Shown here piece by piece: positions 2,361-23,013 of a DNA stretch of 64,000 nt. A model generated the notes under the pieces. It did no database searches. It was given only the letters and a program-made list of their open reading frames with translations, and was not told where the DNA came from. The translations under genes and the position numbers were made by a program. The stretch lies in contig JAGXIO010000186.1 of NCBI GenBank assembly GCA_024635555.1, positions 1 through 64,000 of the forward strand, written 5' to 3'. Each line of letters starts with the position of its first letter. Position 1 is the stretch's first letter. The stretch is from Saccharicrinis sp. Lineage in GTDB: Bacteria; Bacteroidota; Bacteroidia; Bacteroidales; Marinilabiliaceae.

Positions 2361-5300
2361 TTACGGCATTAAGAACGTTTCCGATACTATTTCTCCTGTT
2401 TTCTTATATATCGCCCGAACAATGTAATATCCATTCTTAATATTTGACGGTATATCCGTACTTGAGATTGCATTACCTGCTGTAAACACTTTTCGTCCCA
2501 TAACATCAAATATTTCAATGTTACTAACCTCTCCAGCAAATTCAAGGCTGCACGATCCACTCTGTAATACTCTTACTTTAATTTTAGATCCATTCTCCAG
2601 TTCGTCGTTAGTTTTCTCAAACCAAGTACGATTTTTTGGATCCACATATTCTTCAATACCAGTAGAAACTTTGTTTGGTACAAGTATAACATTATACATG
2701 CTACTTTCCCCTCCGTTTCCATTTAGAGTAATGTTTTCACCTTTACTAAAAAATTTACTTCTTATATACCTAGTAGCTTCAGCTCCGTTTAAATTTGTAG
2801 AAATGGTTTCTGTATAATCAATCCAGCCATTTTCATTTGTAAGCCAAGTCGTAGCCAATTCTGTACGTTCTGTTGTGTAAACAACAAACACTGTCATATC
2901 CTGCTCTACAGTAAATGAAATCAGACTTGTTGTCGGTGAAGTTATCTTATCGTCGTTTGGAGTTCGTAAAGCCTCTTTTCCTAGTAACAAGGAAGGTACA
3001 CCTGTAAATTTATATAATCTGTCGGTATACATTTTCTCATCTTCGTTTAAAGTAAACCACTCATAAGTTTTAGTGCTATTTACGCTGAATCCTGAAATCG
3101 GATTCACTTGCTCTTCAGTAATTGTAGCTACACACTTAGCTGTAAAATCTCCATCAGATGTTTTTACTGTAATGGTTGCTGTACCTTTCCCAACAGCAGA
3201 GACAACACCATTAACAACAGAAGCTATAGTCGGATCACTAGAACTCCACTCTACAGATTTGTTATCAGCATTTGCAGGAATAATAGTTGCTGTAATAGTT
3301 TCACTACCACTAGCCATGTTTATAGCCGATTTATCTAATGTTATTCCTGTAACAGCTATACTAACTTTGTCGGTAGTAGGATTAATGACTTTACCATTCC
3401 ATGTATCAAAATCTATTGTGTATGTTGATGCTTCAGGTATGTAACCATTTTGTCTCTTTCTAAATTCATCTCTATTCCATTTGTTCGATAAGATTTGATT
3501 TCCTATGATGTTTTCACAAAGTAAACCAAAACGCAGGTGAGAGAAGCCGGCATTATCTGCTCTACCCATTTCTAATGGTGCATTATATATGTTTACTTTT
3601 GAATCTGGCACACCTGTTGCAGCATCAAGCCTCCAAGCATAAATACCACCATCTGCTTCAGAATGTCTTCCGGCGGCACAAGTAATTTTTCCACCACTTA
3701 CACTAACGCCAACTACTGGCCATCTCGATTCTAGTTGTCCGTGTACACCAATTTTACTTTCTTCTGGGGCAGCAAGAAATTTCCATTTCATTTTTCCATC
3801 AGAAGGATTCAGACAGTAAACATATCCATCAGCAGAACCAAAATAAACTGCACCGTTAAACTCTACCACTGAACCATTAATTCGGCCACCAGCAAGAAAA
3901 GTCCATTTTACGGTTCCACTTTCCTTTGCAACAATCATGTTTTCGTGAATATAACCCTGTATCGATAAGCTACCTACTGTTACGGTATTCGTGCTCGTCA
4001 TTGCTAATGCTTCGTATTTGAAGTTATCCGTCCAAACACGTACAATTTCACTATTGCTTTTCGTATAAGGTGCTGCAGCAGCAGCCATATTTGTTGCTAA
4101 TTCGTTGTGTGTAATTAATCGATTAGCATCATTAATAGGCGTCTTATAAGGCTCGAGCAAAGGGGATGTTAACGATATCACACCACGTACGGAATTATAA
4201 CATGAACACCATCCTGTGGCAAAATAAAGCCCACCATAAGCAGGAGTGCTAGCGCCACCACAAGCACTACGAGTAATAAAATTTCTTGATACTTTTACAT
4301 AATTTTCAGTGGGCACTTTCCAATCTGCCAACATTACACAGCCAGTAACAATATAGTTTTTTGTACCACTGGCACGTGTACAATTATTGTATTTACCCAT
4401 ATCGTTCCATGAAATAGTTGCACCTGTTTCTCTGTCAATACGTTCAAAAGCATCAGAGTTAGTAACTATAACTTGGTTATCAACAACCATTAACATATGG
4501 CCATAAGATGTTTTTTCACCACCAGCTACAAGAGGAAAGATGTCTGTTCCCCAGTAACTAGAAGTTTTTAAGGTTCTTTTTTTCTCCGGTTCCATCTGAT
4601 AATGCGTTTTCCATAGAAGTTGGTTTTTGGCAACATCAATTGAGCAAAGAAATGGGTCGTTATTAGCTGCTAAAACACCAGTAGCGCCAAAAAGATATAG
4701 TCTTTCGTTATCGTAAATTATCTGAGTAATATTTGGATAGATTGTATCGGAACCGACACCACCTGCACCAACAAATTCCGTGTTTTCCCAAAGTTTATCT
4801 CCGTTTGTTGCATTAAGCGCAACTGCTTTCTCGTTCGATGTGCCGTCCCATCTATTTCTAGTTTGGTTTTGTAAGCTTTGAGCAAAAAAGATTCGCTTGT
4901 CTTTTTTATCTAATACTGGAAATATAACATATTTGTCTGAAGTAAATCTCCATTTAAGATTTCCTGTAGATATTTCCACAGCACTTAGTTGTTTAGCATT
5001 TGCGATATATAAAATGCCATCATCCGCGATTAAATGCTCGTCGCAAAATTTCTTCCAACTATTTAAAGAATCTACAGAAAATGCACCACCTTCGGGATAT
5101 TCCATTATTTTATCGCCGGTATGTAAATCGTAAGAAGTAAGCACACCACCCTCTTCAGGTACTAAAAACACCTTTCCATCAGCAATAATGTGATTCGTTC
5201 TGTGATCTACAGCGTATGTAAATAATCTCCACAATGGCATACCGTTCATAGCATCTCTTGCAGTATACACATGTGATTTCTTATCAAAAGCAGCTCCTGT

Positions 5301-6005
5301 TTGACTCCAATCAACAATAACACCTTCAGATGCCATTATTCCCATAGTAAAGTCCATACCGTAGCGCAAGCCACTAATAAATCGAAATCTATTCATAGGT
5401 GGAGCAACTGCGCCATCATTAGAAACAGGATTTCCATTATTGCCGCAAAAACGACGCTCCCAACCATCAAAATTAGCAGGAACTATGGCTTTAACAACTT
5501 TCCATGTGCCAGCTTGTTTAATATAAGCCACACCGTAAGGAGAGAGTACTCTTTTTATCTCGTCATCACTTGGTTTGTCGGCACTATTAATGTTGTCTAA
5601 ATCGGAAACAAACAGGTTAATTGCACCCGAAGCAAAAGGAAGTACGTTTATGGTCTTTGGCTTTTCAACACTTACAAGTCCCATTAATCCTTTTTGAAGA
5701 ATTTTGGAGCGTGTTGCCTGTAATTCTGTTTCAGTAACGGCTATTCCGGCCACATACATTTTACCACTATTGGTTAGTTCAGTGGTAAGGGAACCATCGC
5801 CTGTACCTAAATGCACACAAACACCTTGTTTGATACCCGTAGCGTTAATAATTGTTTGGGCCGTTTGGCTATGGGCAAGGGTAGATTGGAGCAATAACAT
5901 GATAATTGCTAACAAACTGAGATTAACAGTTGTCATTCCCGTAATACGGCTCTTGCTATTTGCCATCAGCGATATTACTTTTCGTGCAATGTTAGTTTTA
6001 ATCAT
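2361..6005 (-). CDS. T9SS-secreted methyltransferase-like/PQQ beta-propeller protein with Big_2 domain
   Basis: The frame is open back to 6143, but ATG 6005 (MIKTNIARKV) is preferred because the extra 46 codons upstream look non-coding; a hydrophobic export signal (LSLLAIIMLLLQSTLAHSQ) follows from either start. After it comes a ~125 residue class I methyltransferase-like fold with a glycine loop 'VHLGTGDGSL' and a later 'LPFASGAINLFVSDLD' strand. Next are ~650 residues of PQQ/quinoprotein-type propeller repeats ('ALNATNGDKLWE', 'LNPSDGKMKWKF', 'YVYCLNPSDG'). Then come a Big_2 Ig-like domain ('VEWSSSDPTIASV'), the 'YTDRLYKF' module shared with the 1-1845 protein, and a T9SS tail ('IEIFDVMGRKVF'...'GYYIVRAIYK'). 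It is a paralogue of 9119-14029. S-adenosylmethionine is not expected outside the cell, so methyl transfer is doubtful and the real activity is unknown. The gene sits between two copies of a long direct repeat. Confidence 0.85.
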   Translation of the reverse strand: MIKTNIARKVISLMANSKSRITGMTTVNLSLLAIIMLLLQSTLAHSQTAQTIINATGIKQGVCVHLGTGDGSLTTELTNSGKMYVAGIAVTETELQATRSKILQKGLMGLVSVEKPKTINVLPFASGAINLFVSDLDNINSADKPSDDEIKRVLSPYGVAYIKQAGTWKVVKAIVPANFDGWERRFCGNNGNPVSNDGAVAPPMNRFRFISGLRYGMDFTMGIMASEGVIVDWSQTGAAFDKKSHVYTARDAMNGMPLWRLFTYAVDHRTNHIIADGKVFLVPEEGGVLTSYDLHTGDKIMEYPEGGAFSVDSLNSWKKFCDEHLIADDGILYIANAKQLSAVEISTGNLKWRFTSDKYVIFPVLDKKDKRIFFAQSLQNQTRNRWDGTSNEKAVALNATNGDKLWENTEFVGAGGVGSDTIYPNITQIIYDNERLYLFGATGVLAANNDPFLCSIDVAKNQLLWKTHYQMEPEKKRTLKTSSYWGTDIFPLVAGGEKTSYGHMLMVVDNQVIVTNSDAFERIDRETGATISWNDMGKYNNCTRASGTKNYIVTGCVMLADWKVPTENYVKVSRNFITRSACGGASTPAYGGLYFATGWCSCYNSVRGVISLTSPLLEPYKTPINDANRLITHNELATNMAAAAAPYTKSNSEIVRVWTDNFKYEALAMTSTNTVTVGSLSIQGYIHENMIVAKESGTVKWTFLAGGRINGSVVEFNGAVYFGSADGYVYCLNPSDGKMKWKFLAAPEESKIGVHGQLESRWPVVGVSVSGGKITCAAGRHSEADGGIYAWRLDAATGVPDSKVNIYNAPLEMGRADNAGFSHLRFGLLCENIIGNQILSNKWNRDEFRKRQNGYIPEASTYTIDFDTWNGKVINPTTDKVSIAVTGITLDKSAINMASGSETITATIIPANADNKSVEWSSSDPTIASVVNGVVSAVGKGTATITVKTSDGDFTAKCVATITEEQVNPISGFSVNSTKTYEWFTLNEDEKMYTDRLYKFTGVPSLLLGKEALRTPNDDKITSPTTSLISFTVEQDMTVFVVYTTERTELATTWLTNENGWIDYTETISTNLNGAEATRYIRSKFFSKGENITLNGNGGESSMYNVILVPNKVSTGIEEYVDPKNRTWFEKTNDELENGSKIKVRVLQSGSCSLEFAGEVSNIEIFDVMGRKVFTAGNAISSTDIPSNIKNGYYIVRAIYKKTGEIVSETFLMP

Positions 6006-6220
6006 TATTAAATTATTTTTAATTATTGTTGTTGCATCGTAACTTTTCCCGTTCTTTTTCAGCGGCGATTTTATTTCTCTACGATTTCTCGGGCTCTTCA
6101 AAGAAAGCGTCCAACTTTTTGGGTGCAACTCAAAAAGAATCACCTTTTGTTATATATGGTCTCGGTTAGCTTTACTGTATTAATATTCTATGGGTCTCTA
6201 CAACCCCATTTTCTTTACAG

Positions 6221-6592
6221 ATAATTAATAAAGTAATACCATTTTTAACACGACGGAAAATAGTTAGATTACCCTTAACCCTAAAATCAAATATTTAATG
6301 TTTTAAAACACACATAAAAAATTGTTACAAAATATATAAAAACAGTATTTTAAATTAAAAATCAACTCGCAACTGAGCATAAATACAGAAAAACACACAC
6401 CCACCCAATCTTCCAATCACCAGCTAATCCTGACTATCATTTTAAGTATATAACACTAAACAAAAAAAAGAGGTTAACTAATTGTGTAATTAGTTAACCT
6501 CTTGTAAAGTTACAATATGTAATGGGTTGATTATTTTTTGATTACTTTTTCAGTAGTTATATTACTACCATTAATTACTTTCACCATATACA
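6221..6592. repeat. Long direct repeat, copy B (partner at 1894-2274)
   Basis: This copy spans the leader upstream of the 2361-6005 gene, the hairpin terminator and the final ~60 bp of the intact 6531-8948 gene. Because the coding portion is continuous with a complete gene here, copy B is probably the original and copy A the derived copy. The gene-free stretch 6006-6530 holds little else: 6006-6143 is an open but unconvincing extension of the 2361 gene. Confidence 0.9.
6468..6503 (-). terminator. Hairpin terminator after the 6531-8948 gene
   Basis: A 15 bp perfect stem (6468-6482 with 6489-6503) with a 6 nt loop lies 27 bp past the stop codon. It is followed on the minus strand by eight T's. 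The stem is AT-rich but long, and the identical stem at 2150-2185 supports its function. Confidence 0.85.
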
Positions 6593-8948
6593 ATCCATTG
6601 GCAAGATCAGAGATGCTTAACTTAACACTAGTTGAAGCATTACCCGATTTAACAACTACGCCATTTACGGTAATAACCTCATAATTAAATGTTTCGTTTG
6701 CAGTTGAGTTAATGTTTAAAAAGCTAGTTACAGGATTAGGAAAAATAGATATACTTAAATCCTTTGTTACGCTGATTACATCAGTTGTTCCATCAGAATA
6801 CTTTATCAGCTCAGTATTTCTATCTGCAAGTAAAGTATATACAGTTCCAACTCTATAGTCATATTCCTTTGTAGATGACGCCAGATAATCCATCCAATTT
6901 GCAGGATTAAACTCACCAACCGCAGTAAATGTTTTACCATTTGCAGTACCCAATCCATATGACCCGGAAGTTATTCCTTCTTGACGTGGACGATAAGCTA
7001 TTTTTAACCATTCGGTACCTGTCTTTTCTTTACGCTCCACAACATATGCCAACTCACCTGATGAAGCATCTACCCAGGAAACAGTATATGCATTAACGGT
7101 AGGATCCCATTCAGCGTTTACGTTAGTAGGAGCATCAATCAACTCCTCAACAGGAGAGTACAAGGCAAAATCATCAATACCACTATTTCTGACAGGTGAT
7201 TGAGTTCCCATATTATTATTTAAAAAATTATCAAAGGCTGAACATGCCACACTACCGCTAGAAGCTCCAACCCAACCTTCTTGTACTGATGATGTCAAGT
7301 TGTGTCCTGCAAAATAACCAAATGCCTTGGTATCCCATACCCCCATATATTTACCCTGGCCTGTTTTTCCACAGATATTATTGGTAATAGCTAAAGAGAA
7401 CGCAGCACACTCACCAGGTGTTTTTTGTATAAGAATTCCTTCGCCATCATTAGCTTGCGAGCCTGTACCGGTGTACCAGTTGTTATCAACCCAAGTATTA
7501 AAGGCACAAAGGTCGGTAAAACGATTCATAAAGTCATCTGTTGGTTTTGAGATTGTAGCTCCATATTGGAACGGAATTATAAAGGAATTGCTGAAATTGT
7601 ATACACTATTCCAATTTGAATTGTCGCACTTATACTTCCAGCCAACATTGTGTTGTATAACAGTATATGAGCCTGCTACGTCAAATATTTTACCGGCAGC
7701 ATTATGTAACCAGTTGTCCTTAATTACAATGTTTTTTGAGAATTGAACTCCATCAGGGAAATCACTACGGTTATCCACTTGGCTTATCAACTGTTTGTTT
7801 ACATCTACACAGTGACCATAAGCATAGTTGAAAATTAAATTCTTCTCTGTTGAAGTAATTTTATTTGTTTCCCGGTCAATCATTATACTTTTAAAGATAA
7901 AATTCTTTGTCGGTTCAGAAACAACATTGTTGGCAATGAAAACATCAGAACCGTATATGGCTATTTTAGATGCATATCTGAAACTTCCCCCACTAAGGAA
8001 GTTATCACCCATACCATACTGATAGACGTTACTAGAGTTTTTATACCACGTACCGTCAAACATATAGTTGGTTACACATGCATTGTCCAATTTGCAACCA
8101 AATACAAAACGTTTTTCACCGGTATAAATTTTCCCTACTCCTTTTTGGTCGGCAGGACAAGTAACACCGCACCAAATATCAAAAGTATTTGTTCCGTCTG
8201 GTACCCTATCGTTCCAACCGTTGATGCCAGCTTGTTTGGTAGCCTTAACTAACCATGAATTTACTGAAGTCCCCCATGTAGAAGCCCAGTGAGCATCAAA
8301 ACCAAAGAACACATAAGCAGCATCCAAATTAACCCACGCAATACCAACATTAGACACATCGGCCAAGCCTGCTTCGTTAGCTCCTTTCATAATACCAATA
8401 AAATTCCACACATAAGGTACTAAACCTTTGCCTGAAGGATCTTTCGACTCAACAACTTTCGACTGCTCTATTTCTTTGTATGGAAAATGAAATTTGGTTT
8501 TCAAATCAGATAATCCATGGTTTTGATATTCACTTTGCGTTACACCATCAAATTCTGCCCAAGGTACAGCCTTAGTGGAGGCTGTTGGTGTTTCACCAAG
8601 GATAACAACTCCTTTTTTCAACATTAAACCTTTTCCTCCAGGGCTATTACCCCAAGCAGCAATGTCGTCAAAATAATAATCGCCAGCAGGATAATAAAGG
8701 ACTCCGCCCCCTTGATTATATAATACATCACGAGCGTATTCAAATTTTGTAAAATCACTAATACAATTAGCACAACCTGCCCCAGCAAAATCATACGTTT
8801 GCATGTTGATTTGGTTATCCCAATTTATATCATCCGTCCACCCAGGATAATTATCACCCTTATAAAATTCAGCAATCGGATTGGCAACCATTGCAAGGCT
8901 TGAGCTTACAGCTAAAGCCAACATTAAAAATATTTTTTTTACTTTCAT
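6531..8948 (-). CDS. T9SS-secreted beta-helix (pectate-lyase-fold) protein with FnIII domain
   Basis: An 805 residue protein with a clear signal peptide (MKVKKIFLMLALAVSSSLA). The N-terminal region carries the 'YPGWTDDINWDN' opening and 'ARDVLYNQGGGVLYYPAGDY', typical of the first coils of pectate-lyase_3-like right-handed beta-helices. Asn-rich coil motifs continue to about residue 600. A FnIII domain follows (~620-715; 'YTVSWVDASSGELAYVVERK'), then a T9SS tail ('ISIFPNPVTSFLNI'...'GLYMVKVING'). It is a close paralogue of 42321-44768, with the same signatures in the same order. A polysaccharide lyase or hydrolase role is likely from the fold, but I cannot assign catalytic residues or a CAZy family. 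It is transcribed after 9119-14029 and ends at a strong terminator. Confidence 0.85.
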   Translation of the reverse strand: MKVKKIFLMLALAVSSSLAMVANPIAEFYKGDNYPGWTDDINWDNQINMQTYDFAGAGCANCISDFTKFEYARDVLYNQGGGVLYYPAGDYYFDDIAAWGNSPGGKGLMLKKGVVILGETPTASTKAVPWAEFDGVTQSEYQNHGLSDLKTKFHFPYKEIEQSKVVESKDPSGKGLVPYVWNFIGIMKGANEAGLADVSNVGIAWVNLDAAYVFFGFDAHWASTWGTSVNSWLVKATKQAGINGWNDRVPDGTNTFDIWCGVTCPADQKGVGKIYTGEKRFVFGCKLDNACVTNYMFDGTWYKNSSNVYQYGMGDNFLSGGSFRYASKIAIYGSDVFIANNVVSEPTKNFIFKSIMIDRETNKITSTEKNLIFNYAYGHCVDVNKQLISQVDNRSDFPDGVQFSKNIVIKDNWLHNAAGKIFDVAGSYTVIQHNVGWKYKCDNSNWNSVYNFSNSFIIPFQYGATISKPTDDFMNRFTDLCAFNTWVDNNWYTGTGSQANDGEGILIQKTPGECAAFSLAITNNICGKTGQGKYMGVWDTKAFGYFAGHNLTSSVQEGWVGASSGSVACSAFDNFLNNNMGTQSPVRNSGIDDFALYSPVEELIDAPTNVNAEWDPTVNAYTVSWVDASSGELAYVVERKEKTGTEWLKIAYRPRQEGITSGSYGLGTANGKTFTAVGEFNPANWMDYLASSTKEYDYRVGTVYTLLADRNTELIKYSDGTTDVISVTKDLSISIFPNPVTSFLNINSTANETFNYEVITVNGVVVKSGNASTSVKLSISDLANGLYMVKVINGSNITTEKVIKK

Positions 8949-9044
8949 ACAAATTATTATTAAATTTAAAATTATAAAAAATAGTTAATACGTTTGGAGT
9001 TTATATGCTAACTCTGACATTCTTTCAACACAATAATGATAATC

Positions 9045-9083
9045 AAAATGAAGCAATTTGAATTTATCAAATTGCTTCATTTT
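9045..9083 (-). terminator. Hairpin after the 9119-14029 gene
   Basis: A 17 bp perfect inverted repeat (9045-9061 with 9067-9083) has a 5 nt loop and starts 36 bp past the stop of the 9119-14029 gene. The stem ends in a short T run on the minus strand, so it is a plausible AT-rich terminator or mRNA-end stabiliser. Confidence 0.65.
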
Positions 9084-9118
9084 GTGTACGCAACTCAATA
9101 CTTTTTGTTGTAAATAAA

Positions 9119-12100
9119 TTAATATATTACAACAATAGCCGATGAACTCAATTTTAATGATGGGCTGTAAGCATTTAAAATATATTGTCCTGCAGGATAC
9201 TTAGATACATTAATATTGAACGTAGAAGATGATTTGAATGTATATACTACTACTCCTTGTACGTTCACTAATTTAAACTCTAATGTCTCATCAAGCTGAG
9301 GCAATTCAACAGTAATCTTTTCGTTTGCAGGAATAGGATATATTGAATAGTTCCCTTTTATTAACACATCTTTGACATTATTCACAACATCTGTTTTTAC
9401 GGTAATTTCATTCGATTTAGGTGATTCACCTGAAGCATTAGATGCTACTACGTAAAAATTATAGGTAGTGTTTTCATTAAATCGATGTTTGCCAGAATTG
9501 CTTAATGTTACCGAAGTGTAATTAGCTGGATAGGTTGACGTTTTAACATAGTCAGCTTCAGATTCTTCTTTAAAATAAATATCATAACCGCTTTCATTGT
9601 CAGCATTGTCAGCCCATGTTAATTTAATTTCAAGTAATCCGCCTATGGCAACAGCTGTTAATTCAGTAGGGGCTACAGGTAATTTAATAGGAGCATTTAC
9701 AACAATATTATTAGAGTATGCAGATATTACTGAGCCTAAAAATGCAGAAACTCTATATGTGTAAACACTGTCAAGCATGGTTGCATTATCAACATACTGT
9801 GTTACGTTAGCTCCAACTGTTGCAATGTTATTAAAGTTTCCGGAGTTGGTTTTTCTTTCTATATAATATCCGGCTTCGTTGGTTGCGTTATCTGTCCACT
9901 CAATTGATATTGGCGAATTACTTGGAGATACAAGATTTGTTGGTGTGGCCACAAACAATCCTATTGTAACAGTTACACTGTTAGAGTATGGACTTACATT
10001 TGTGCCAGCAAAGGCACAAACCTTATATGTATAGGTGATACCTGAAGCAATATTTTTATCAATAAAGCTATTGCTATTGGAAGGTAACACGGCTAATTGC
10101 TCCCAATAACCCGAAGCTGTTTTACGCTCTAAGCTATAACCTGCCTCATTATTATTGGCATCAGTCCATTGTATTACCACCGAATCGTTTTGCAAAACAG
10201 CGCTTAATGGGCTAGGTGCATTTGATGGGTTGGGAGCATTTACATTCACTAACCAATGCTCGCCTGTTACCACATTATAATTCCCAATTTTATTAGGGTA
10301 AGCGGCTAACTTAGTCCATGCCAATTTAGAGATAGTATTCTCCTGATCATTGGACCCATACAAATAAATACTGTCGCCTCCAACTCCGTTATCACCATTG
10401 GCTTTAATGTCAATTAATATACTATCAGGGTATATTCTATATGCGTTAGACATATCAAGTACAATATCATTATGTCTTACCCAGGCATTAGTTGATTTAG
10501 ACCCGTCATACATTGCATAAGTTGTTCCACCTCCTTTGAGAAATGCGATTAAACCAAGCGGACTTCTATTAATTTCACCCCAGTCATCGTATTTTAAAGG
10601 AGTGGTTGAAAACTCAGGTTTTAAACATTGTGGGTAATTATAGCCACCACTGTAAAAACTAAGTTCATTAACTTTTGTATCAGAATTCCATGATGTTCCT
10701 GTTTCAGCAAAATTTAATCTTAGGTAACGGTATGTACCTGGAGAGTAACTTGCATTCAAGGTAAGTGTTAATGTATCGGAGCTGATTAATCCTTTTGAAG
10801 ATGTTATCTTTAAAATTACATCATGTTTGCCAGGGCTTAACTCCAATGTTTGCTTTACTCCATCAGCTAATAATGTAGCCCCTTTATACCATTGATAACT
10901 TGCGATAGTATCATATGGTGCGTACGATGCACTACCATCAACATAAAATGGTTCTTTGCCATCAAGCCCAACATCTGATTTCACCTGGTCATTACCGGCA
11001 CGAGCAAAAGGCTCTTCGTTAGAACCACTTCCATAACAATATACTTTGCCATCTTCACAACTAAAATACAGTTTGTCATAAGCAGCAGCTAACCCATTAG
11101 TAACAACAGCTGATGCTAATGTAATGGTTGACAAGAGTGTTCCTCTATAGCTATCAAATATATACACTTTGCCTCCGGCGGAGGTGAATACATTTGGTTT
11201 TTTGTCTTCAACCGCTACAACAAGATTGTTGCCGGCAAAAATTAAACTATTCGCATTTTTCAAAACTGAATAATTATACTCCCAGTTAAGCTTTATTTTT
11301 TCCTCATTGGTCAAATCCCCACCCCCATCGGTACTGGTTATCAAACTATCTTCAATATAAGCTAAACGACTAACATTTATTTTTGATGGAAAACCTTTGA
11401 CCGTTGCATGAATTAAGTTATGAGCTGTACCTGGACCATCAAAACTAATCAATGAATTTCGCTTTACAGGATTCCTTTCAGTTGAATTAATATTAGTGGA
11501 CATTCCTTCGGAGGTAAATTGCCCATCGGAAAAATTAAAGTTTCGACTACCATTGAAACTGAATTTATCATCGTCGGCATACAATAAGCAGCTAGCTAAT
11601 TTGCTTTGATACAATGAAGTAACAGAACTAGCCGTATAATGGGGTTCGTCTGATTTTTTTTCAGTATAATCATACCATCTCCGAGGCCGATTGATAATAT
11701 TGTTCCACTCCACCTCGCCAGTATACGGGTTTAACGCCCACATGTAAATACCTCCATCAGAATCCGGAGTATAACCGGCATTTACAATTACCTTATTGTC
11801 TTTTATTAAAAGGGATCCTAATAAACTCCATGCAGTTTCAACATGGCCATGGGCTACAATTTTTTTCTCGTTAGCAGCTGCCATAAATTTCCAAACCAAT
11901 TCTCCGGTTTTTAATTTCAAACAATAAACATATCCATCACCTGCACCAAAAATACACATACCATTGTACAATGACGGTGGACTTACCAAACGACCTCCCA
12001 CGATATAATACCACAACTCATTTCCGGTAATTGCATCGTAAGCTATTATTTTATTCTCTTCGTGAGCAGACACAACCAATACACTATCTGACACAACAGG

Positions 12101-14029
12101 TGCTGTAAGAGGACCTATGTGTTTGTCGCTACCTAACCAATCTTGATAAATACTTTGAGTTTTTGCCCAAACGGGCATCGCAGCGGCTTTAGACCAGCCC
12201 AAAACAGGTACTGTTGACGTAGGTATTTGACTGTTATTGGCTGATGTTCTATTGGCGTTAGCCATAAACATTGGCCATTCATTAACTCGTGGCCATACCT
12301 TAGGGGTAACGGTATCAGTCAATGTTATTTTAGTTGTCAATCGCTTATTTAAAGCAATATCAGGCCACAAAGGCTCTGAACTTAAAGCATTGGCTCCTCT
12401 GATCCCATGACCACACTGACATCGGTTTCCTGTATAATAGATAAGCCCATATGATGGGTATTGCGATGTTCCACACTCACTACGCGTTATATCACGCCTT
12501 GTTACCTTTGAAGTAGAAGGGTCAACAAATAACTGAAATCCTACTAAAAGTTTTTTTGACGTGGCTGAACTTTGTGTACATCTTAAATTACCGCCATCGA
12601 AAGTACGTATTAGGTCTCCATTGTTAGCATCAAACTCGGCAAACCCACCAGACATTGCATAAAACTTTCCATTTAAAACAGTGGCATCAAGCTTTTGACC
12701 AATACCTCCTGCAGATGTAAGTTCTTGCTGCCAAATAAGTTGTCCATCATTCAAATTACGTGCTCCCCACAAATAATAGTTCCCTACGGCACTAATTCCC
12801 CGTGCTTTATTGTAAAATAATTTTCCCTCGGCTATAAAAAGCTGTGATATCACAGCATTTCCCTCTTTCACAGTGATAGCCTCTTCCCAAACTTTGGCAT
12901 ACGTTTCGGTATCAAAACAAGCAATGGTTTGTACTTGATCCATTAGTATATCTCTACCTGTTTTATAACTACTAGCAGCAGTAACCACATATACTTTGTT
13001 ATTTACCTTGTCAACAGTAGGGAAGCCAGCAAAATTTGTAAATGTATTTGAAAATAATTTTGCGCCATCAATGCTCATAATAAATAATGATTTCTCAGCA
13101 GTAAGGAATATCTTATCATTGGCAATCACAAAATTAGGGTAGTCAGTTTTACTAGATTTACCTCCATTGGTAAACGTTTTTACAATATTTCCATTTTTTG
13201 CGTCGATAGCAACCATATAACCTGTTTTGCTAAGGAATGTATATATTAATCCTTTATAAAAAACTACAGGCAATTGCTTTTCTATAAACGGGTCTGACTC
13301 TGGATGTTTTTTTCGCCATATCATTGTTCCGTTAGCAGCATTTCTACATATCATATACACCTCATTGGAGCTGTTTGAGGTTTTATTATTAAATTTTGTA
13401 GTATAAAACATCATTCCATTATCAAACCGAAAGCCAGCTTGAGAGCGAGATTCTGTACTTATTTCCACATCGGCAATCCACTGAAGCGACGTAGGCACAT
13501 CTACAATATTGTCGTCAACTCTATTCACGTTGGTTTCATCACCATAAAAATGACTCCATTCCCCCATATTAGCTTTGAGGTCAATTTTTTTAGCAGTCCA
13601 AGTGCCACCTTGCTTTACATAGTAAGCACCAAAAGGGGCTACTACACGCTCAATTTCTTCAATGGAAGGTGCATTTGCCCCAAGAGCATCTCGGTCAATG
13701 ACCAATAAGTTTATCAAATTATTGGCAAATGGCAGTTTCGTTAAATTAGCATAATAATCCACAGTTACAATTCCATTCAACGAACCTGCATTAATACTTT
13801 CCCTAATGGCCGGGATGTTAGATTCGTTCAGTGCAATACCATATACCAACATATTTCCTCCATTGGAAAGGTTCATCTCCAATGATCCGTCAGTTGTTCC
13901 AACTCTCACACATAAACCACTGGTTATACCCGTTGCAGATATTATCTCGCTGGATGTTTGTGCATAAACATTACCCCATCCTATTATTAATAGGATAATG
14001 AAAACAAAAAATGTAGAAATTTTTTTCAC
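9119..14029 (-). CDS. Giant T9SS-secreted methyltransferase-like/PQQ propeller protein with PKD-like, discoidin-like and FnIII domains
   Basis: A 1636 residue protein. The signal peptide is followed by a class I methyltransferase-like domain (~27-150; 'VRVGTTDGSLEMNL', 'LPFANNLINLLVIDRD'). Next come a linker with 'EWSHFYGDETN', a long PQQ propeller region (~160-1040; 'AIDAKNGNIVKTF', 'AYDAITGNELWYY', 'CLKLKTGELVWKF'), a PKD-like domain ('VDGSASYAPYDTIASYQWYK') and an F5/8-type-C-like segment ('YRYLRLNFAETGTSWNS'). Three FnIII domains ('GYSLERKT', 'GYYIERKT', 'GYDIYFKE') and a T9SS tail follow ('YSIYPIPANEKITVEL'...'GQYILNAYSPS'). The N-terminal 1000 residues align in order with 2361-6005. The combination of methyltransferase-like and PQQ domains resembles uncharacterised secreted proteins I recall from Planctomycetes; no biochemical role is known to me. 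Extracellular polysaccharide-related oxidation or binding is only a guess. Confidence 0.85.
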   Translation of the reverse strand: MKKISTFFVFIILLIIGWGNVYAQTSSEIISATGITSGLCVRVGTTDGSLEMNLSNGGNMLVYGIALNESNIPAIRESINAGSLNGIVTVDYYANLTKLPFANNLINLLVIDRDALGANAPSIEEIERVVAPFGAYYVKQGGTWTAKKIDLKANMGEWSHFYGDETNVNRVDDNIVDVPTSLQWIADVEISTESRSQAGFRFDNGMMFYTTKFNNKTSNSSNEVYMICRNAANGTMIWRKKHPESDPFIEKQLPVVFYKGLIYTFLSKTGYMVAIDAKNGNIVKTFTNGGKSSKTDYPNFVIANDKIFLTAEKSLFIMSIDGAKLFSNTFTNFAGFPTVDKVNNKVYVVTAASSYKTGRDILMDQVQTIACFDTETYAKVWEEAITVKEGNAVISQLFIAEGKLFYNKARGISAVGNYYLWGARNLNDGQLIWQQELTSAGGIGQKLDATVLNGKFYAMSGGFAEFDANNGDLIRTFDGGNLRCTQSSATSKKLLVGFQLFVDPSTSKVTRRDITRSECGTSQYPSYGLIYYTGNRCQCGHGIRGANALSSEPLWPDIALNKRLTTKITLTDTVTPKVWPRVNEWPMFMANANRTSANNSQIPTSTVPVLGWSKAAAMPVWAKTQSIYQDWLGSDKHIGPLTAPVVSDSVLVVSAHEENKIIAYDAITGNELWYYIVGGRLVSPPSLYNGMCIFGAGDGYVYCLKLKTGELVWKFMAAANEKKIVAHGHVETAWSLLGSLLIKDNKVIVNAGYTPDSDGGIYMWALNPYTGEVEWNNIINRPRRWYDYTEKKSDEPHYTASSVTSLYQSKLASCLLYADDDKFSFNGSRNFNFSDGQFTSEGMSTNINSTERNPVKRNSLISFDGPGTAHNLIHATVKGFPSKINVSRLAYIEDSLITSTDGGGDLTNEEKIKLNWEYNYSVLKNANSLIFAGNNLVVAVEDKKPNVFTSAGGKVYIFDSYRGTLLSTITLASAVVTNGLAAAYDKLYFSCEDGKVYCYGSGSNEEPFARAGNDQVKSDVGLDGKEPFYVDGSASYAPYDTIASYQWYKGATLLADGVKQTLELSPGKHDVILKITSSKGLISSDTLTLTLNASYSPGTYRYLRLNFAETGTSWNSDTKVNELSFYSGGYNYPQCLKPEFSTTPLKYDDWGEINRSPLGLIAFLKGGGTTYAMYDGSKSTNAWVRHNDIVLDMSNAYRIYPDSILIDIKANGDNGVGGDSIYLYGSNDQENTISKLAWTKLAAYPNKIGNYNVVTGEHWLVNVNAPNPSNAPSPLSAVLQNDSVVIQWTDANNNEAGYSLERKTASGYWEQLAVLPSNSNSFIDKNIASGITYTYKVCAFAGTNVSPYSNSVTVTIGLFVATPTNLVSPSNSPISIEWTDNATNEAGYYIERKTNSGNFNNIATVGANVTQYVDNATMLDSVYTYRVSAFLGSVISAYSNNIVVNAPIKLPVAPTELTAVAIGGLLEIKLTWADNADNESGYDIYFKEESEADYVKTSTYPANYTSVTLSNSGKHRFNENTTYNFYVVASNASGESPKSNEITVKTDVVNNVKDVLIKGNYSIYPIPANEKITVELPQLDETLEFKLVNVQGVVVYTFKSSSTFNINVSKYPAGQYILNAYSPSLKLSSSAIVVIY

Positions 14030-17174: not shown

Positions 17175-18266
17175 TCAAAAAAGAGATTCAATCCCACCTT
17201 CAAGGTTATATAAATCAAATGTTGGATTTAACTTTAGTAGTTCAATGATTAAATCCTTGCTTCGAAAACCTTTTTGGCATACAACAATTACCGGCTGATC
17301 TGTTCGATTAAAACTTCCAAAATTGAATGTACTCAAAGGCATTTGTTCTACAGAAGGCATTTGGAGCTTAGGCTGTTCATAAAGTTCCCTGATATCTATA
17401 ATACGGTAAGCAGAATAATTCAAATTAAAGTCTATTGCTGTAATGGATTTAATTTCTCCAACACTATTGATTTCACAATTAAAATTGTAATCGAATTTAA
17501 CGAATTCAGTCTCATTTAGTTGAATCTTTGAAGTATTCTCCGCTCCACCCTTAATGTCAATTATAAAAACAGATTGATCAAGGCTATCATAATAAAATAT
17601 TCTACCATCTAATGGTTGTCCGATTCCGGTAATGATTTTTATAACTTCAGAGGCTTGAATACATCCAATAATACCAGGTAAAATTCCAATAACACCTATT
17701 TCAGTACAATTCGGAACTGTTCCGGGTTGAGGCGCATCAGGATATACCGAACGATATGTTGGACTTTCAGGAGTTAAATTAAACACAGTAACTTGTCCCT
17801 CAAATTTAAATATTGCTCCGAAAACCAATGGTTTTTTAAGCAAATAACAAGCATCATTAATTATATATCTGGTAGTAAAATTATCTGTACCGTCAACTAC
17901 AATGTCGTAATCCGACAAAAGACCCAAAGCATTCTTGTTGGTTAATTTAACATCGAATGTTTGTACATTGACAAATGGATTAATTTTAGCAATAGCTTCG
18001 GCGGCACATAGCACTTTCTTCTCACCTATGTGGGTTTCAGAATAAAGAATTTGACGCTGAAGATTACTAATACTTACAACATCAAAATCAACAATACCAA
18101 TATTGCCCACACCTGCCGCCGCCAAATATTGTAAAACAGGACATCCAAGGCCTCCTGCCCCAACAACCATTACTTTAGCATTTTTGAGTTTTATTTGACC
18201 CTCAACGCCAAGTTCAGGTAGTATGATATGCCTGGTATAGCGTTGTAATTCTATGTTTGAAATCAT
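17175..18266 (-). CDS. moeB: MoeB/ThiF-type adenylyltransferase fused to a rhodanese domain
   Basis: A 363 residue protein expected to adenylate the C-terminal Gly of a MoaD/ThiS-like sulfur carrier; the rhodanese domain would then supply sulfur. The E1-like domain (1-~245) has the Arg of 'RYTRHI' (R9/R12), the nucleotide loop GAGGLG (36-41), D62/N68/R71 of 'DFDVVSISNLQRQ', K83/K84, 'DGTDN' (D128) and C187 of 'TVPNC'. The rhodanese domain (~275-363) has an active-site loop C-QKGFRS with C330. The two CxxC pairs that bind Zn in classical MoeB are absent (T170/S173 take the place of the first pair). It is the last gene of the operon, 18 bp after the second E1-like gene and near a MoaD-like gene, which supports a molybdenum/tungsten cofactor role over thiamine. 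Confidence 0.9.
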   Translation of the reverse strand: MISNIELQRYTRHIILPELGVEGQIKLKNAKVMVVGAGGLGCPVLQYLAAAGVGNIGIVDFDVVSISNLQRQILYSETHIGEKKVLCAAEAIAKINPFVNVQTFDVKLTNKNALGLLSDYDIVVDGTDNFTTRYIINDACYLLKKPLVFGAIFKFEGQVTVFNLTPESPTYRSVYPDAPQPGTVPNCTEIGVIGILPGIIGCIQASEVIKIITGIGQPLDGRIFYYDSLDQSVFIIDIKGGAENTSKIQLNETEFVKFDYNFNCEINSVGEIKSITAIDFNLNYSAYRIIDIRELYEQPKLQMPSVEQMPLSTFNFGSFNRTDQPVIVVCQKGFRSKDLIIELLKLNPTFDLYNLEGGIESLF

Positions 18267-18284
18267 GAGATTTTTACATTTGGT

Positions 18285-19025
18285 TTACTGTTTTCCGCAC
18301 ACAGGACAAGTTGGATTTTTATGAATAGCTACAATATCAAAAGTATTATTCCGATAATCCATGAGCAATAATTTACCTGCCAACACTTCGCCAAACCCTG
18401 CTAAAACTTTTATTGCCTCCATTGCTCCCAAACACCCCACAACACCAGAAACAGCCCCAAACACAGGGAAACGTCGCTTCCAATGTGGGGGATTCTCAGG
18501 ATAAAGGCATGATAAACATGGCGTTTCGCCAGGTATGAATGTTGTAATTTGAGCCTCCAGTTCATACATTGCACAGTCAATCATTGGCTTATTTTGAAGC
18601 ACCGACTGCAGATTCATACTATAACGTTCCTCAAAAAGTGGTGCTGCATCAACAATTAAATCAACTTTACTTACGATGGAAGTAGCGTTTAAGGGAGTAA
18701 TATTCTCGTTAATAATCTCAATATTTAAGCGAGGGTTAAGATCCAACAATCTCTTTTTAGCCGATTCAACCCGCGATGTTCCAAGAGACTGATCGGTCAT
18801 CAGCAATTGGCGATTTAAATCACTATTCTGTATGTTTCCATTATGTGCTAACACCAAATTACCAATCCCGGCAGCAGCCAATTCATAAGCCACAATTCCT
18901 CCTAATCCACCACATCTTGAAATCAACACACTTGACTCCTTTAATTTTATCTGTCCTTCTTCTCCAAAATCGGGAACATCAATTTGCCATGAATAAACTT
19001 CCCTTTCTTTATCTGTCAAAATCAT
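18285..19025 (-). CDS. HesA/MoeB-family E1-like protein, probably non-catalytic
   Basis: A 246 residue protein of the ThiF/MoeB/HesA fold. The framework is conserved ('FGEEGQIKLKESSVLIS', 'CGGLGGIVAYELAAAGIG', 'NSDLNRQ', 'GAVSGVVGCLGAMEAIKVL'). Both Zn-type pairs are present: CLSC (C170/C173) and CPVC (C240/C243). Several residues needed for adenylation in MoeB are changed: the 'RYSRQ' arginines are V/W, the first loop Gly is R37, the acidic residue before 'SNLxRQ' is lost, and the 'D.TDN' motif reads 'DAAPLFEERY'. It may act as a structural partner of the downstream MoeB-rhodanese protein or in binding the MoaD-like carrier. HesA/MoeB homologues occur in tungsten aldehyde oxidoreductase gene clusters, but no such enzyme is in this window. 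Confidence 0.8.
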   Translation of the reverse strand: MILTDKEREVYSWQIDVPDFGEEGQIKLKESSVLISRCGGLGGIVAYELAAAGIGNLVLAHNGNIQNSDLNRQLLMTDQSLGTSRVESAKKRLLDLNPRLNIEIINENITPLNATSIVSKVDLIVDAAPLFEERYSMNLQSVLQNKPMIDCAMYELEAQITTFIPGETPCLSCLYPENPPHWKRRFPVFGAVSGVVGCLGAMEAIKVLAGFGEVLAGKLLLMDYRNNTFDIVAIHKNPTCPVCGKQ

Positions 19026-19042
19026 TATCTATTATTTAAACA

Positions 19043-19324: not shown

Positions 19325-19335
19325 ATGATTTGCTT

Positions 19336-20028
19336 TTAAATAACTTCTTCGTTAAAAAGAAAGTTTCTTGTTTCAAAAAATTCATTCCTTTCTTGCATTT
19401 CTATTTTTGCATTTTCAATTGTCAATACTTTCTCTGCCAGATTTTTAACTTCATCAATATTATGTGTGACATGTAAAACGGTCACTTTCATTTTAGATTT
19501 TATAGATTTTAGCATCTTAAATAATTCCTGCTTTGTGACATAATCTAAGGCATTAAATGGCTCATCAAGCAATAATATAGCTGGTTGAAAAATAATTGCA
19601 CGTCCTATTGCAACCCTTTGTTTCTCGCCACCAGACAAATTGCGGGGCAAACGTTGCAATAAATGCGAGATACCAAGCATTTCACTCACTTCCTTAATTC
19701 TTTGATCCCGGACTATTTTATCAACCTTACGAATTTTTAGTGCGAATCCTATATTATCCGAAATAGTCATTTGATTAAACAAAATCAAATCCTGAGGCAC
19801 ATAACCAATATCTCTTTCGCCAGGTTTAAATTCCGATGCATCAATTCCATTAATAAACAAACTGCCACTATTGAATTTTCGTAATCCACACAACACCTCT
19901 ACTAAAGTGGTTTTACCCGAACCTGTTTTTCCAAGCAGGCAATAGTAAGTGTCATCGTCCAATTTAACCGAAATATTATTTAGCGAAAATACACCTTGTT
20001 TTATACTTATATTTTGAAACTCAACCAT
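19336..20028 (-). CDS. ABC transporter ATPase, molybdate/tungstate type (pair 1)
   Basis: A 230 residue cytoplasmic ATPase with Walker A GKTGSGKT (33-40), Q-loop 'YVPQD' (76-80), signature LSGGE (131-135), Walker B 'ILLLDEP' (D155/E156) and switch His in 'LHVTHN'. It lacks the C-terminal TOBE/Mop domain of classical ModC and is the short form seen in TupC/WtpC-like systems. It follows its permease by 3 bp. Oxyanion import is inferred from the substrate-binding protein two genes upstream and the MoaD/MoeB genes downstream. Confidence 0.9.
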   Translation of the reverse strand: MVEFQNISIKQGVFSLNNISVKLDDDTYYCLLGKTGSGKTTLVEVLCGLRKFNSGSLFINGIDASEFKPGERDIGYVPQDLILFNQMTISDNIGFALKIRKVDKIVRDQRIKEVSEMLGISHLLQRLPRNLSGGEKQRVAIGRAIIFQPAILLLDEPFNALDYVTKQELFKMLKSIKSKMKVTVLHVTHNIDEVKNLAEKVLTIENAKIEMQERNEFFETRNFLFNEEVI

Positions 20029-20031
20029 AAC

Positions 20032-20832
20032 TTAAAAAACACTTTCGCCCATATACCTTACCAACATCAATACTACAAAACTAGCTCCAATCATTATTAA
20101 TGAAACAGCTACTGCAGCTTCAATATTGCCAATAGACATTTCGAGAAAAACCGTTGTGGGCAATACTTCAGTTTTCATTCTCGTAGCACCTGAAAATAGT
20201 AAAATTGGACCAAATTCGCCTAATGCACGAGCCCACGCTAAGGAAGCAGCAGTAAAAATACCATTTTTTGCTTCTGGAATAAGTATATACCAGAAAGCCT
20301 CCCGTTTATTTGCCCCCAAGGTCATTGCAACACTTTCCATTCGCTTGGGTATCTGATTGAAGGTGACCATCATAGTTCGAACAGAAAAGGCACATGCTAC
20401 TACAAATTGTGCTATTATTATACTTGGTATAGCGTACGTTATACTTACATATTGTTCAATGAATTTTCCTACACCAGTTTGAAATAAAATCAACAAACTC
20501 AGCCCAATAATGAGTGGAGGCAAAATAATTGGAATATCAATAATTGCGTCAATAAATTTTGATCCTTTAAATTTATAGCGTGTAAGGAAGTAGGCAATTG
20601 GTATTGAAAAGATAATTGACAATACCATTGATACCGTGCAGGTAAACAGACTTAACTTAATGGAGTATTGAATTTCCGGGCTTTTTAATGCCAAAAATAT
20701 TTGGGATGAATTTGTAAATGACAAATCGGAAGCTATCATCGCCAAAATCAACAAAATATATGTACTTGCTATTACTGCCATTATAAGAATAAATGGCAAA
20801 TCGGAACCGACTTTATGTTTTGCTAAACTCAT
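20032..20832 (-). CDS. ABC transporter permease, molybdate/tungstate type (pair 1)
   Basis: A 266 residue membrane protein with about six hydrophobic segments. The ModB/TupB-type coupling motif 'TLGANKREAFWYILIPEAKNG' contains the EAA-loop glycine and is followed by 'ALGEFGPILLFSG', the hallmark of molybdate/tungstate/sulfate permeases. It is 7 bp after the substrate-binding lipoprotein gene and nearly abuts its ATPase. It forms the intact transporter pair of the operon. Confidence 0.9.
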   Translation of the reverse strand: MSLAKHKVGSDLPFILIMAVIASTYILLILAMIASDLSFTNSSQIFLALKSPEIQYSIKLSLFTCTVSMVLSIIFSIPIAYFLTRYKFKGSKFIDAIIDIPIILPPLIIGLSLLILFQTGVGKFIEQYVSITYAIPSIIIAQFVVACAFSVRTMMVTFNQIPKRMESVAMTLGANKREAFWYILIPEAKNGIFTAASLAWARALGEFGPILLFSGATRMKTEVLPTTVFLEMSIGNIEAAVAVSLIMIGASFVVLMLVRYMGESVF

Positions 20833-20839: not shown

Positions 20840-22294
20840 TTAATTCTTTATAACAAAACCATTATTGGTAAAGTGATTATGGGATTTTTCAGATTTAATG
20901 GCATCAACAAGTCTTTTCATTGTGTTTTTATTCTCCGATATTTTCGATAAGCCAAAATTTTGGGTTGCTTTGGCATATGTTTCTTTTATTGCAATGACAT
21001 CAAGTTTATCTTTTACTTTGGCCGTATTCGCCTCGTAAACAATAGCTGCATCCAAAGCCCCTGTACGCAACTGATTTATCAATAAATCGGCAGTTGGGGT
21101 TTGCACAAACACATTTTTATTTATTGATTCCAGTTTCAATGATTTAAAAATTCGCTGCGTTAATGCACCCAGTGAGCTTTGTTGAGGATTGCAAACACCA
21201 AGCTTAAGGGATTGATCAGACAAATCTTTTAAGGACTTTATATTGAGTGGATTTCCCTTCTTAGTTACAATTACAATGTCAGTTTGTGAGATGTTACGCA
21301 GATCACAAAAATCAGCTTTTACCATATCCATAAAACTAATATCGCAACTGAGAAACGCATCGGGTTTTCGTCCCGTTTTAATTTGACCAACCAATATACC
21401 ACATCCATTATATACTCGTGTGACTGTTAGCCCTTCACGAGCTTCAAACTGTTTGATGATTTCTTCTACTGAAACACGATTAACCCCGCCACAATACAAA
21501 AGTAAATCAGGCTTTTCAGACCATTTATCACCTTCCACTACAGTATATTTGTATTTTTCAAAAACGCTCAGCCCTTTATCTCTGGCAGAGAGATACCGAA
21601 GGAATTTAAGTGCTTCTGTTGGATTCTTACTGGATTTAAGAACTGACACCCAAACACTTTCTTGGAAATTGTCTAATTGCGGGTCTTTTATAATATCCAA
21701 TTCAGGGTATTGATAAGCAACACCATCCCAGATTATAGCTGCGTCGACGGTTCCTAATTTCACATCATTTGCAACATCAAATACCGTAGGTTTAAAAACA
21801 GTCACTTTTTTACTAATATCCCCCCAAACATTTAACTCAGTATATAACTTTTGAGTCATTTTACCAATAGAAGTAACCTCTGGAGTACCCAAACAAAAAG
21901 TTACATTGGGCTTTAAAAAATCTAGAATTGTTGAAATTTTCTTCGGGTTTCCTTTCCTTGTAATAATTACTGGTTTCAGAAAAGCCAATGGCTGAATTTC
22001 ATCCACCAGATTATATTTTTTTGCACTTTCCAGAAAACTGTTATCTGAGGCTAAATAAAGATCTCCTTTATTTGATACACGGATATTTGAAAGTAATGAG
22101 CCGGATCCACCATACTGGACAATCACATCAACTCCATATTCTTTTTTATATTGCTTTACAACACTATCCATTGGAGTTTTCATTCCAGCAGCACAATAAA
22201 CTAATAATTCAGCTTCCTTTTTATTATTATTTGTGCAAGAATCAAATGTAATTAAATAAAAAATCGCAAAAAATAAAACAACTAATAGTTTCAT
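20840..22294 (-). CDS. Tandem-duplicated molybdate/tungstate-binding lipoprotein
   Basis: A 484 residue lipoprotein (lipobox 'ITFDSC', lipidated C20). Two complete ModA/TupA-like binding domains sit head to tail. Domain 1 begins 'LLVYCAAGMKTPMDSV' with 'YGGSGSLLSNI', and domain 2 begins at ~257 with 'LLLYCGGVNRVSVEEI' and 'YNGCGILVGQI'. Both carry the later pattern 'GNP...SLGALTQRIFK' or 'GTPEVTSIGKMTQKLY' and 'LGTVDAAIIWDG'/'TGALDAAIVYEA'. Normal family members have one such domain (~250 residues). The gene lies between two permease/ATPase pairs, so one anchored protein may serve both. Molybdate versus tungstate cannot be told from sequence by eye. Confidence 0.9.
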   Translation of the reverse strand: MKLLVVLFFAIFYLITFDSCTNNNKKEAELLVYCAAGMKTPMDSVVKQYKKEYGVDVIVQYGGSGSLLSNIRVSNKGDLYLASDNSFLESAKKYNLVDEIQPLAFLKPVIITRKGNPKKISTILDFLKPNVTFCLGTPEVTSIGKMTQKLYTELNVWGDISKKVTVFKPTVFDVANDVKLGTVDAAIIWDGVAYQYPELDIIKDPQLDNFQESVWVSVLKSSKNPTEALKFLRYLSARDKGLSVFEKYKYTVVEGDKWSEKPDLLLYCGGVNRVSVEEIIKQFEAREGLTVTRVYNGCGILVGQIKTGRKPDAFLSCDISFMDMVKADFCDLRNISQTDIVIVTKKGNPLNIKSLKDLSDQSLKLGVCNPQQSSLGALTQRIFKSLKLESINKNVFVQTPTADLLINQLRTGALDAAIVYEANTAKVKDKLDVIAIKETYAKATQNFGLSKISENKNTMKRLVDAIKSEKSHNHFTNNGFVIKN

Positions 22295-22314: not shown

Positions 22315-23013
22315 TTAATTTCGCTTTACAAAACGGGAAACATATTCATTCAATGGATTATTAATCAAGTCATGAATGGTACCGGATTGTACAACAGAAC
22401 CATTCTGCATAATAAACACAAAATCAGCAATTAATTTGGTTTCATCAAAAGAATGAGAAACATGCAGGACCGGAATATCCAACGTTTGTTGAATATTCTT
22501 TAATTCAAGGCAAATAATATCCCGAGTGTGCTCATCGAGCGCACTGACTGGTTCATCTAAAATTAAAATGTCAGGATTATAAGCAAGGGCACGCGCTAAT
22601 GCAACACGTTGTCTTTCTCCACCCGACAAATGCGTTATGCTTCTCTTTGCAAGGTGTTCTATTCTCAATAATTTTGTAACTTCAGTAAATTTAAGATCTT
22701 GTAATTCCGTGCTCGCATCTCGTAATTTCAATGGGAATAATATATTCTGCCTAACAGACAAATGAGGGAAAAGTTCACCACTTTGAGTAACGTAACCAAT
22801 ATTACGTTTTCGTGGAGGCAAATCAGAAATTAACTTATTATTGATATAAATATCCCCTTTGGATTGCAACAATCCACAAATGGATTCCAGCAAAAGTGTT
22901 TTTCCTGAACCGGTATGACCTAAGATTACACAATAAAGAGGTTCTATAATTTCAAATGACGTATTCAGTTCAAAATCACCAGCTTTAAGTTTAATATTAT
23001 CTATTTTAATCAT
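22315..23013 (-). CDS. ABC transporter ATPase, molybdate/tungstate type (pair 2)
   Basis: The ATG at 23013 is chosen over the TTG at 23028; this gives 232 residues and an 8 bp overlap with the end of the permease frame, as in translational coupling. It has Walker A GHTGSGKT, 'GYVTQSG', signature LSGGERQRVALARA, Walker B 'ILILDEP' and 'LHVSHS'. It has no TOBE domain. It pairs with the permease at 23006-23833, which is frameshifted, so this ATPase may be orphaned or may serve the intact permease of pair 1. Confidence 0.88.
   Translation of the reverse strand: MIKIDNIKLKAGDFELNTSFEIIEPLYCVILGHTGSGKTLLLESICGLLQSKGDIYINNKLISDLPPRKRNIGYVTQSGELFPHLSVRQNILFPLKLRDASTELQDLKFTEVTKLLRIEHLAKRSITHLSGGERQRVALARALAYNPDILILDEPVSALDEHTRDIICLELKNIQQTLDIPVLHVSHSFDETKLIADFVFIMQNGSVVQSGTIHDLINNPLNEYVSRFVKRN

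Follow-up and report, generated by a model that had tools for sequence, protein, structure and literature searches.

The window analysed here, a 64,000-nucleotide stretch of a Saccharicrinis contig, carries two large minus-strand genes encoding proteins A and B (Table 1). Both reading frames are intact and uninterrupted, and that of B is open over 2361-6143 on the minus strand (1260 aa), with an ATG at 6005. By eye, each protein begins with a hydrophobic N-terminus of the signal-peptide type, in agreement with the export proposed by the initial annotation, and it is by these signals that a cytoplasmic location, one of the outcomes that would have refuted that proposal, can be judged. Pfam cut-offs are passed by PQQ_2 propeller repeats in both proteins, by fn3 domains in A and by a Big_2 domain in B. 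The single long PQQ-type propeller first described is of the right repeat type but falls into two blocks, P2 and then P1, and P1 of B looks truncated. Type IX secretion (T9SS) tails had been assigned to both proteins. The tail of A passes two curated cut-offs (26.8 versus 23 bits and 30.8 versus 27 bits), which would place A on the cell surface, whereas that of B falls below both (20.6 versus 23 bits and 16.1 versus 27 bits).

Table 1. Features of the window discussed in the text.
Feature	Position	Strand	Details
Protein B	2361..6005	minus	signal peptide, M, P2, truncated P1, Big_2, weak T9SS-like tail
Protein A	9119..14029	minus	1636 aa; signal peptide, M, P2, P1, fn3 domains, T9SS tail
A, T9SS type A sorting tail	9155..9343	minus	residues 1563-1625
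A, propeller block P1	11030..12280	minus	residues ~584-1000; N-terminal block in P1-M-P2 relatives
A, propeller block P2	12374..13552	minus	residues ~160-552; holds four invariant cysteines
A, cysteines C484, C519, C537, C539	12413..12580 (first to last codon)	minus	alignment to relatives
A, domain M	13580..13957	minus	residues ~25-150; predicted class I methyltransferase fold; glycine loop VGTTDG; Ala in place of the strand-2 acid
ThiF-family protein, MoeB type	17175..18266	minus	PRK05690, 295.8 versus 266 bits; rhodanese-like C-terminus by eye
Second ThiF-family protein	18285..19025	minus	56% identical to L162:182-1000, beside a relative
ABC ATPase	19336..20028	minus	nearest WtpC, below cut-off
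ModB-like permease	20032..20832	minus	below cut-offs; 51-61% identical to permeases at relatives' loci (133-247 aa aligned)
Tandem ModA-type binding protein	20840..22294	minus	484 aa; 30% identity between its halves (175 aa aligned)
Second ABC ATPase of importer region	22315..23028	minus	second of the region's two ATPases
Second ModB-like permease	23318..23833	minus	N-terminal part only in frame
Propeller-blade-like remnant	30527..30770	plus	shuffle-tested alignment scores

The domain ahead of the propellers, M, is predicted to adopt the Rossmann-like methyltransferase fold suspected at the outset; a structure prediction lacking that fold, which would have refuted the initial reading, was not obtained. 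An AlphaFold model of A's M domain alone is confident (pLDDT 85.7), and its best Foldseek match in the PDB is the methyltransferase 3dlc (E 7.6e-9). Of 470 matches at E<=0.001, the 50 listed are all methyltransferases by title or fold; they include RebM, AtmM, SpnL, SpnF, MccD and MitM, which we take to share that fold. A profile of 51 M domains likewise matches 3dlc (E=3.5e-5), and Methyltransf_11 matches B at E=0.02, below the Pfam cut-off. In a larger model of A (989 residues, mean pLDDT 67), domain M stays near 90 and the cysteine region of P2 lies below 50 (fragment residues 459-559). The motif I glycine loop reads GTGDG in B and GTTDG in A, where the middle glycine is replaced, and the position of the strand-2 acid is alanine in both proteins.

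Beyond a single T9SS gene (14795-16666), a block of importer and ThiF genes (17175-23833) lies on the same strand as A. Its tandem ModA-type binding protein passes the modA model TIGR01256 (124.6 versus 62.5 bits). The second ModB-like permease, as judged from one reading frame and its ORF, is apparently split by a frameshift and could be a pseudogene or an assembly error. In those relatives' loci that were searched, no ORF resembles the T9SS proteins encoded beside A and B (6531-8948 and 14795-16666) at E<=1e-6.

A third, broken copy had been placed at 30551-30770, and its membership is not established. One propeller-blade-like piece with a generic motif lies at 30527-30697 and scores 74, with no more than 56 in any of 60 shuffles. 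The cysteine piece at 30687-30770 scores 36, exactly the shuffle median, and no M domain was found at the 30527-30770 site. Decayed pieces lie within 29844-30811, between the GH42 and GH3 genes, and comprise a glycosidase-like frame (30008-30448, by eye) and the one blade.

A family in two domain orders

Sequence comparison classes A and B as diverged members of a large, multi-phylum family that combines two propeller blocks with one predicted methyltransferase-fold domain. Two branches differ in domain order. One is P1-M-P2, an order revealed when partial matches in a few related genomes were read. The other is M-P2-P1 (hereafter M-first), which comprises A, B and relatives whose record titles name Planctomycetota, Verrucomicrobiota and Armatimonadota. 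The features that define membership, M and a four-cysteine P2 with P1 before or after them, are present in A and B.

The hallmark of the family is a set of four cysteines in P2, unchanged in every aligned row. The four positions hold cysteine in A and B, in every one of the 22 M-first rows and in all 88 of the P1-M-P2 rows that were aligned (86 of 86 after duplicate removal). The family ORFs inspected contain no CXXCH haem motif, and a cytochrome fusion was rejected on that ground. By a crude hydropathy test, an N-terminal hydrophobic stretch is present in 82 of 86 P1-M-P2 rows and 21 of 22 M-first rows.

Among 393 same-order genomes, a profile of A, B and three relatives detected the family in 11 at E<=1e-10, the genome of the window included, and no full-length match appeared beyond that genome among 296 genomes of the phylum. 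Within the window's own genome only the A and B loci match as members. A further propeller gene there (contig C197) gives a weak match over its repeats. Five weak propeller-type matches came from plasmid records, none spanning most of the query.

A scan of genome contigs seeded with six P1-M-P2 rows returned 384 relatives, of which we analysed the best 80; four of these (L097, L098, L116 and L132) are contigs of genomes that were also sampled as whole genomes. Record titles among the best 80 of 384 name Bacteroidota, Acidobacteriota, KSB1, Armatimonadota, Hydrogenedentota, Omnitrophota, Planctomycetota, Verrucomicrobiota, Latescibacterota, Gemmatimonadota and others. Judged by these titles, the family is present in eight phyla or more, with the proviso that individual titles of metagenome-assembled genomes (such as 'Klebsiella', 'Akkermansia' or 'Nealsonbacteria') are possibly mislabelled and do not count as evidence of the organism. 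A profile of A and B matches at E<=1e-15 in 26 of the genomes behind 50 of these loci. The family has expanded in some genomes, with 26 matches to that profile in genome G737 and 12 in G732.

Of 20 regions read around matches to the A and B profile, 18 hold M-P2-P1 proteins (22 rows), and in L224 and L226 the match is a P1-M-P2 protein. In a tree of 54 rows, the two domain orders form the two sides of one 100/100 branch, and A and B group with the M-first proteins. Their own branches are very long, and the tree's long-branch warning covers both of them and one more row. Column identity supports their membership: of 221 columns with at least 85% conservation among the 22 M-first rows, A is identical at 106 and B at 112.

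Parts of the family also occur in other arrangements. Frames that match M by itself, most of them 210-235 aa long, occur in distant genomes of the phylum (E down to 1.7e-15), which indicates that M has free-standing relatives. At four loci (L119, L125, L128 and L139), a shorter paralogue of ~960 aa directly precedes the main propeller gene and matches P1, M and the cysteine end, skipping most of P2. The libraries searched name only generic pieces of the family, namely propeller repeats and methyltransferase domains.

Gene partners of the relatives

We surveyed the surroundings of the family in 100 loci (80 from the scan and 20 M-first), all chosen for holding the family and many of them ending at contig ends, with ORFs picked mechanically and not by a gene caller. 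The most frequent partner, present at 51 loci, is an exported protein of ~260-390 aa with a CSC motif, hereafter the CxC protein, which recurs beside both branches. It is followed by an FtsX-type permease (30), the ATPase type that goes with it (29), a relative of TonB receptors (9) and a tandem ModA (7). Nearly all CxC-protein ORFs (58 of 59) and all 41 linked FtsX ORFs contain C-x-C, and both cysteines are invariant in the 21 aligned FtsX rows. The CxC protein has no credible match in Pfam, NCBIfam or the PDB, and the permease and ATPase at locus L098 do not reach the lolCE and LolD cut-offs.

The partners stand in cassette-like orders. At L098 the order is CxC protein-FtsX-ATPase-propeller-TonB receptor, at L102 it is TonB receptor-CxC protein-FtsX-ATPase-propeller, and at L215 and L219 it is propeller-CxC protein-tandem ModA-permease-ATPase. 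Among the 20 M-first loci, the CxC protein adjoins the propeller gene in six (L214-L219 only), and none was found next door in the other 14. Counted over the 25 commonest neighbour families, FtsX accounts for 20 and ABC_tran for 9 of 116 P1-M-P2 neighbours (drawn from 170 same-strand neighbours shorter than 900 aa), and SBP_bac_11 for 4 of 74 M-first neighbours.

The CxC protein and the permease track the family across whole genomes. The CxC protein was found in 10 of 13 family-positive genomes of the same order versus 0 of 60 negatives (Fisher p 4.6e-10), 20 of these negatives being named as matchless and 40 (G400-G439) inferred to be so. Two of the three family genomes in which it was not found (G032 and G683) carry divergent copies beside the family gene; the G032 copy is supported by hhalign (97.5%), and reading places divergent copies beside the genes in G683, G586 and a second G560 locus. 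The CxC-type FtsX is present at E<1e-80 in 11 of the 13 family-positive and 0 of the 60 negative genomes, and it is missing in G586, whose contig measures 4.7 kb.

One family-negative genome, G436, holds a more distant FtsX homologue (locus L254, contig C603; E 2.9e-39) in what looks by eye like an arsenic-related operon. The operon comprises ACR3-like, arsenite methyltransferase-like and reductase-like genes, an exported protein that ends in cysteine, and an FtsX/ABC pair bearing a CC motif. Homology between the CxC protein and the thioredoxin-like protein of this operon is unsupported (hhalign probability 0.4).

The window's own genome yields no CxC protein at E<=0.01, in a search that also missed the divergent copies in G032 and G683. 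It does encode an FtsX homologue (locus L253, contig C75; E 8.2e-39) in which, by eye, C-x-H replaces C-x-C. This gene is followed by an ATPase and then by a TonB receptor 36-42% identical to the cassette receptors over most of its length, and the row may be a remnant or variant of the cassette. The arsenic-type setting of the G436 homologue and the C-x-H of this one fit metal ligands.

A second link joins the window to distant phyla. Homologues of its tandem ModA (34-43% identity) occur in seven relatives' loci, and a full-length tandem ModA is found only in the window's own genome among 79 same-order genomes, eight congeners included. The protein matches at E<=1e-60 in 27 of 50 family-bearing genomes (counted by reading) and in 11 of 79 genomes of a planctomycete phylum sample; the two samples differ in phyla and the second was taken by phylum and not by family content, so this is a rough base rate. 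In 8 of the 50 genomes, by reading, it lies on the same contig as a match to the A and B profile, within ~16 kb. This linkage, common to the window and to distant phyla, is the main reason for a metal or oxyanion reading and may reflect joint acquisition. A and B may also be functionally linked to the importer, and the gene partners of relatives point to metal, oxyanion or thiol handling.

The cysteine site and its possible roles

We tentatively favour the following account, as a possibility that still falls short of probable. A and B may be surface-targeted members of an exported family in which the four-cysteine site of P2 binds a thiophilic metal and exchanges it with CxC partners. Outside the cytoplasm this cysteine site, most likely the working core, would bind a thiophilic metal or a metal-oxyanion species. 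In the relatives, the metal species would be exchanged with CxC-bearing partners, the exported CxC protein and the ATPase-driven FtsX-type permease, and the substrate would be brought in by the TonB receptor or the molybdate-type importer. Family membership, fold, export signals, cysteine invariance and gene linkage are computed, and from them we infer metal binding, partner exchange and substrate.

The cysteines could instead be structural, as two disulfides closing P2, with A and B acting as surface proteins that bind or act on glycans and M serving as scaffold; we consider this somewhat unlikely. Family proteins bear export signals, and disulfides form outside the cytoplasm. A glycan role would suit the window, which holds GH38, GH42, GH3, GH28 and GH31 genes and several T9SS proteins, as well as the fn3 domains of A and a malectin domain in the P1-M-P2 relative L097, at an end of the profile that most P1-M-P2 rows match. 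Against structural disulfides, the partner proteins have conserved CxC pairs of their own and co-occur with the propellers. Against a glycan role, no propeller lyase or glycosidase model reaches its cut-off in A or B (the nearest is the carrageenase propeller on B, 15.3 versus 26.8 bits), and sulfatases are the sole clear carbohydrate-type enzymes among the neighbours of relatives (2 of 116 for P1-M-P2 and 3 of 74 for M-first), in a count limited to the 25 commonest families, where single-member glycosidase families would not appear. The tie to polysaccharide use in the initial annotation has the window's own glycosidases on its side, but the recurrent partners of relatives are the CxC protein, FtsX/ABC components and tandem ModA.

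A broader version of the metal account is, in our view, unlikely. In it, the family and its CxC partners would form an undescribed cross-phylum exported system whose M domain, four-cysteine propeller site, CxC protein and CxC permease hand a thiophilic metal or metal-oxyanion species between outer membrane, periplasm and inner membrane. The M domain of M-first proteins would still bind a nucleotide-like ligand outside the cytoplasm, and A and B would be a surface offshoot acquired together with the tandem-ModA importer.

Methyltransferase activity of M outside the cytoplasm, in M-first relatives if not more widely, with A and B as inactive descendants, is quite improbable, although several observations favour it. 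Methyltransferase motifs are mostly retained in the relatives and the strand-2 acid is lost in A and B. The three loop glycines are kept in 21, 19 and 20 of 22 M-first rows. The SAM-contacting strand-2 acid is D in 15 of the same 22 and D or E in 82 of 89 P1-M-P2 rows, a set that includes two duplicates, removed only for the domain conservation counts and the 86-row cysteine recount. In the M-first relative L207, three Pfam methyltransferase models score above their cut-offs, namely Methyltransf_25 (40.1 versus 27 bits), Methyltransf_31 and Methyltransf_11; the P1-M-P2 relative L097 fails Methyltransf_25 (20.1 versus 27 bits). M is also the most conserved domain of the M-first branch (columns at least 85% conserved: M 39/122, P2 96/417, P1 79/398), which argues against a purely passive M there. 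Yet M ranks last in conservation among the P1-M-P2 proteins (columns at least 90% conserved: M 8/161, P1 76/386, P2 116/457), the acid is missing from A and B, and SAM is not known to occur outside the cytoplasm.

The initial proposal that the first domain was recruited for another job agrees with the alanine in A and B but finds no support across the family, where most relatives keep the acid. In A and B its loss is consistent with either recruitment or decay of M. Under the metal-site account favoured above, M in these two proteins is probably a ligand-binding or docking domain.

That the propellers act as PQQ-dependent dehydrogenases, with the Rossmann domain as an accessory, is in our view highly improbable: the repeats are of PQQ type, the propeller profile finds quinohaemoprotein dehydrogenases in the PDB and PF01011 is passed by the relatives L097 (36 bits) and L207 (39.3 bits), but BamB and tetrathionate hydrolase are about equally near, PF01011 stays below cut-off in A (22.1 versus 26.7 bits) and is not among the matches listed for B, and the haem motif is missing from the family ORFs inspected.

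The structural half of the earlier idea was right and its glycan half is unproven; the main discovery is a cross-phylum family defined by its cysteines and CxC partners. Although it spans at least eight phyla and reaches up to 26 matches per genome, the libraries searched name only its generic pieces. Titles and abstract openings of the literature surveyed contain no description of the family or its cassette. Its components belong to familiar kinds of export and ABC systems, and, as far as those titles and openings tell, their combination and job are not described. The family and its partners suggest that metals or thiols are handled outside the cell in a manner not yet described. Invariant cysteines, an unmatched partner protein and cassette-like gene orders together make this a concrete, testable hypothesis. 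They also raise the question of an exported SAM-binding fold whose motifs are largely intact in one branch and drifting in the other branch and in A and B.

Comparison with known systems

Each component has recognizable counterparts. Class I SAM methyltransferases (3dlc and RebM 3bus; Methyltransf_11 and Methyltransf_25) resemble M in predicted fold, remote sequence and glycine loop, and their motifs are conserved in the M domains of relatives too. Unlike them, M of this family comes with an export signal, has a short core, is fixed between or before two propellers and, in A and B, has lost the strand-2 acid. BamB/PQQ_2 propellers and quinoprotein dehydrogenases are built from the same repeat type as P1 and P2. 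The family differs from them in its two propeller blocks, four invariant cysteines and lack of a haem motif, and neither A nor B reaches the curated cut-offs for BamB (TIGR03300; 56.7 and 34.8 versus 285.2 bits) or PQQ enzymes.

The partners are related to known transporters. The cassette shares the permease C-terminal domain and the ATPase type with the FtsX ABC systems LolCDE and MacB; it differs from these in the periplasmic CxC pair of its permease and in being linked to genes for the propeller and the CxC protein. Like the binding protein of a ModABC molybdate importer, that of the window scores above the modA cut-off, but its ModA is tandem and in some relatives stands in line with propeller and CxC-protein genes. 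The closest parallel in working principle may be NosDFYL, the copper-delivery machinery of nitrous oxide reductase, in which an ABC-driven membrane pair would likewise work together with an exported thiol protein, a receptor in the outer membrane and a client of propeller type. The comparison concerns working principle only, and the cassette permease is of FtsX/LolC type, unlike that of NosDFYL.
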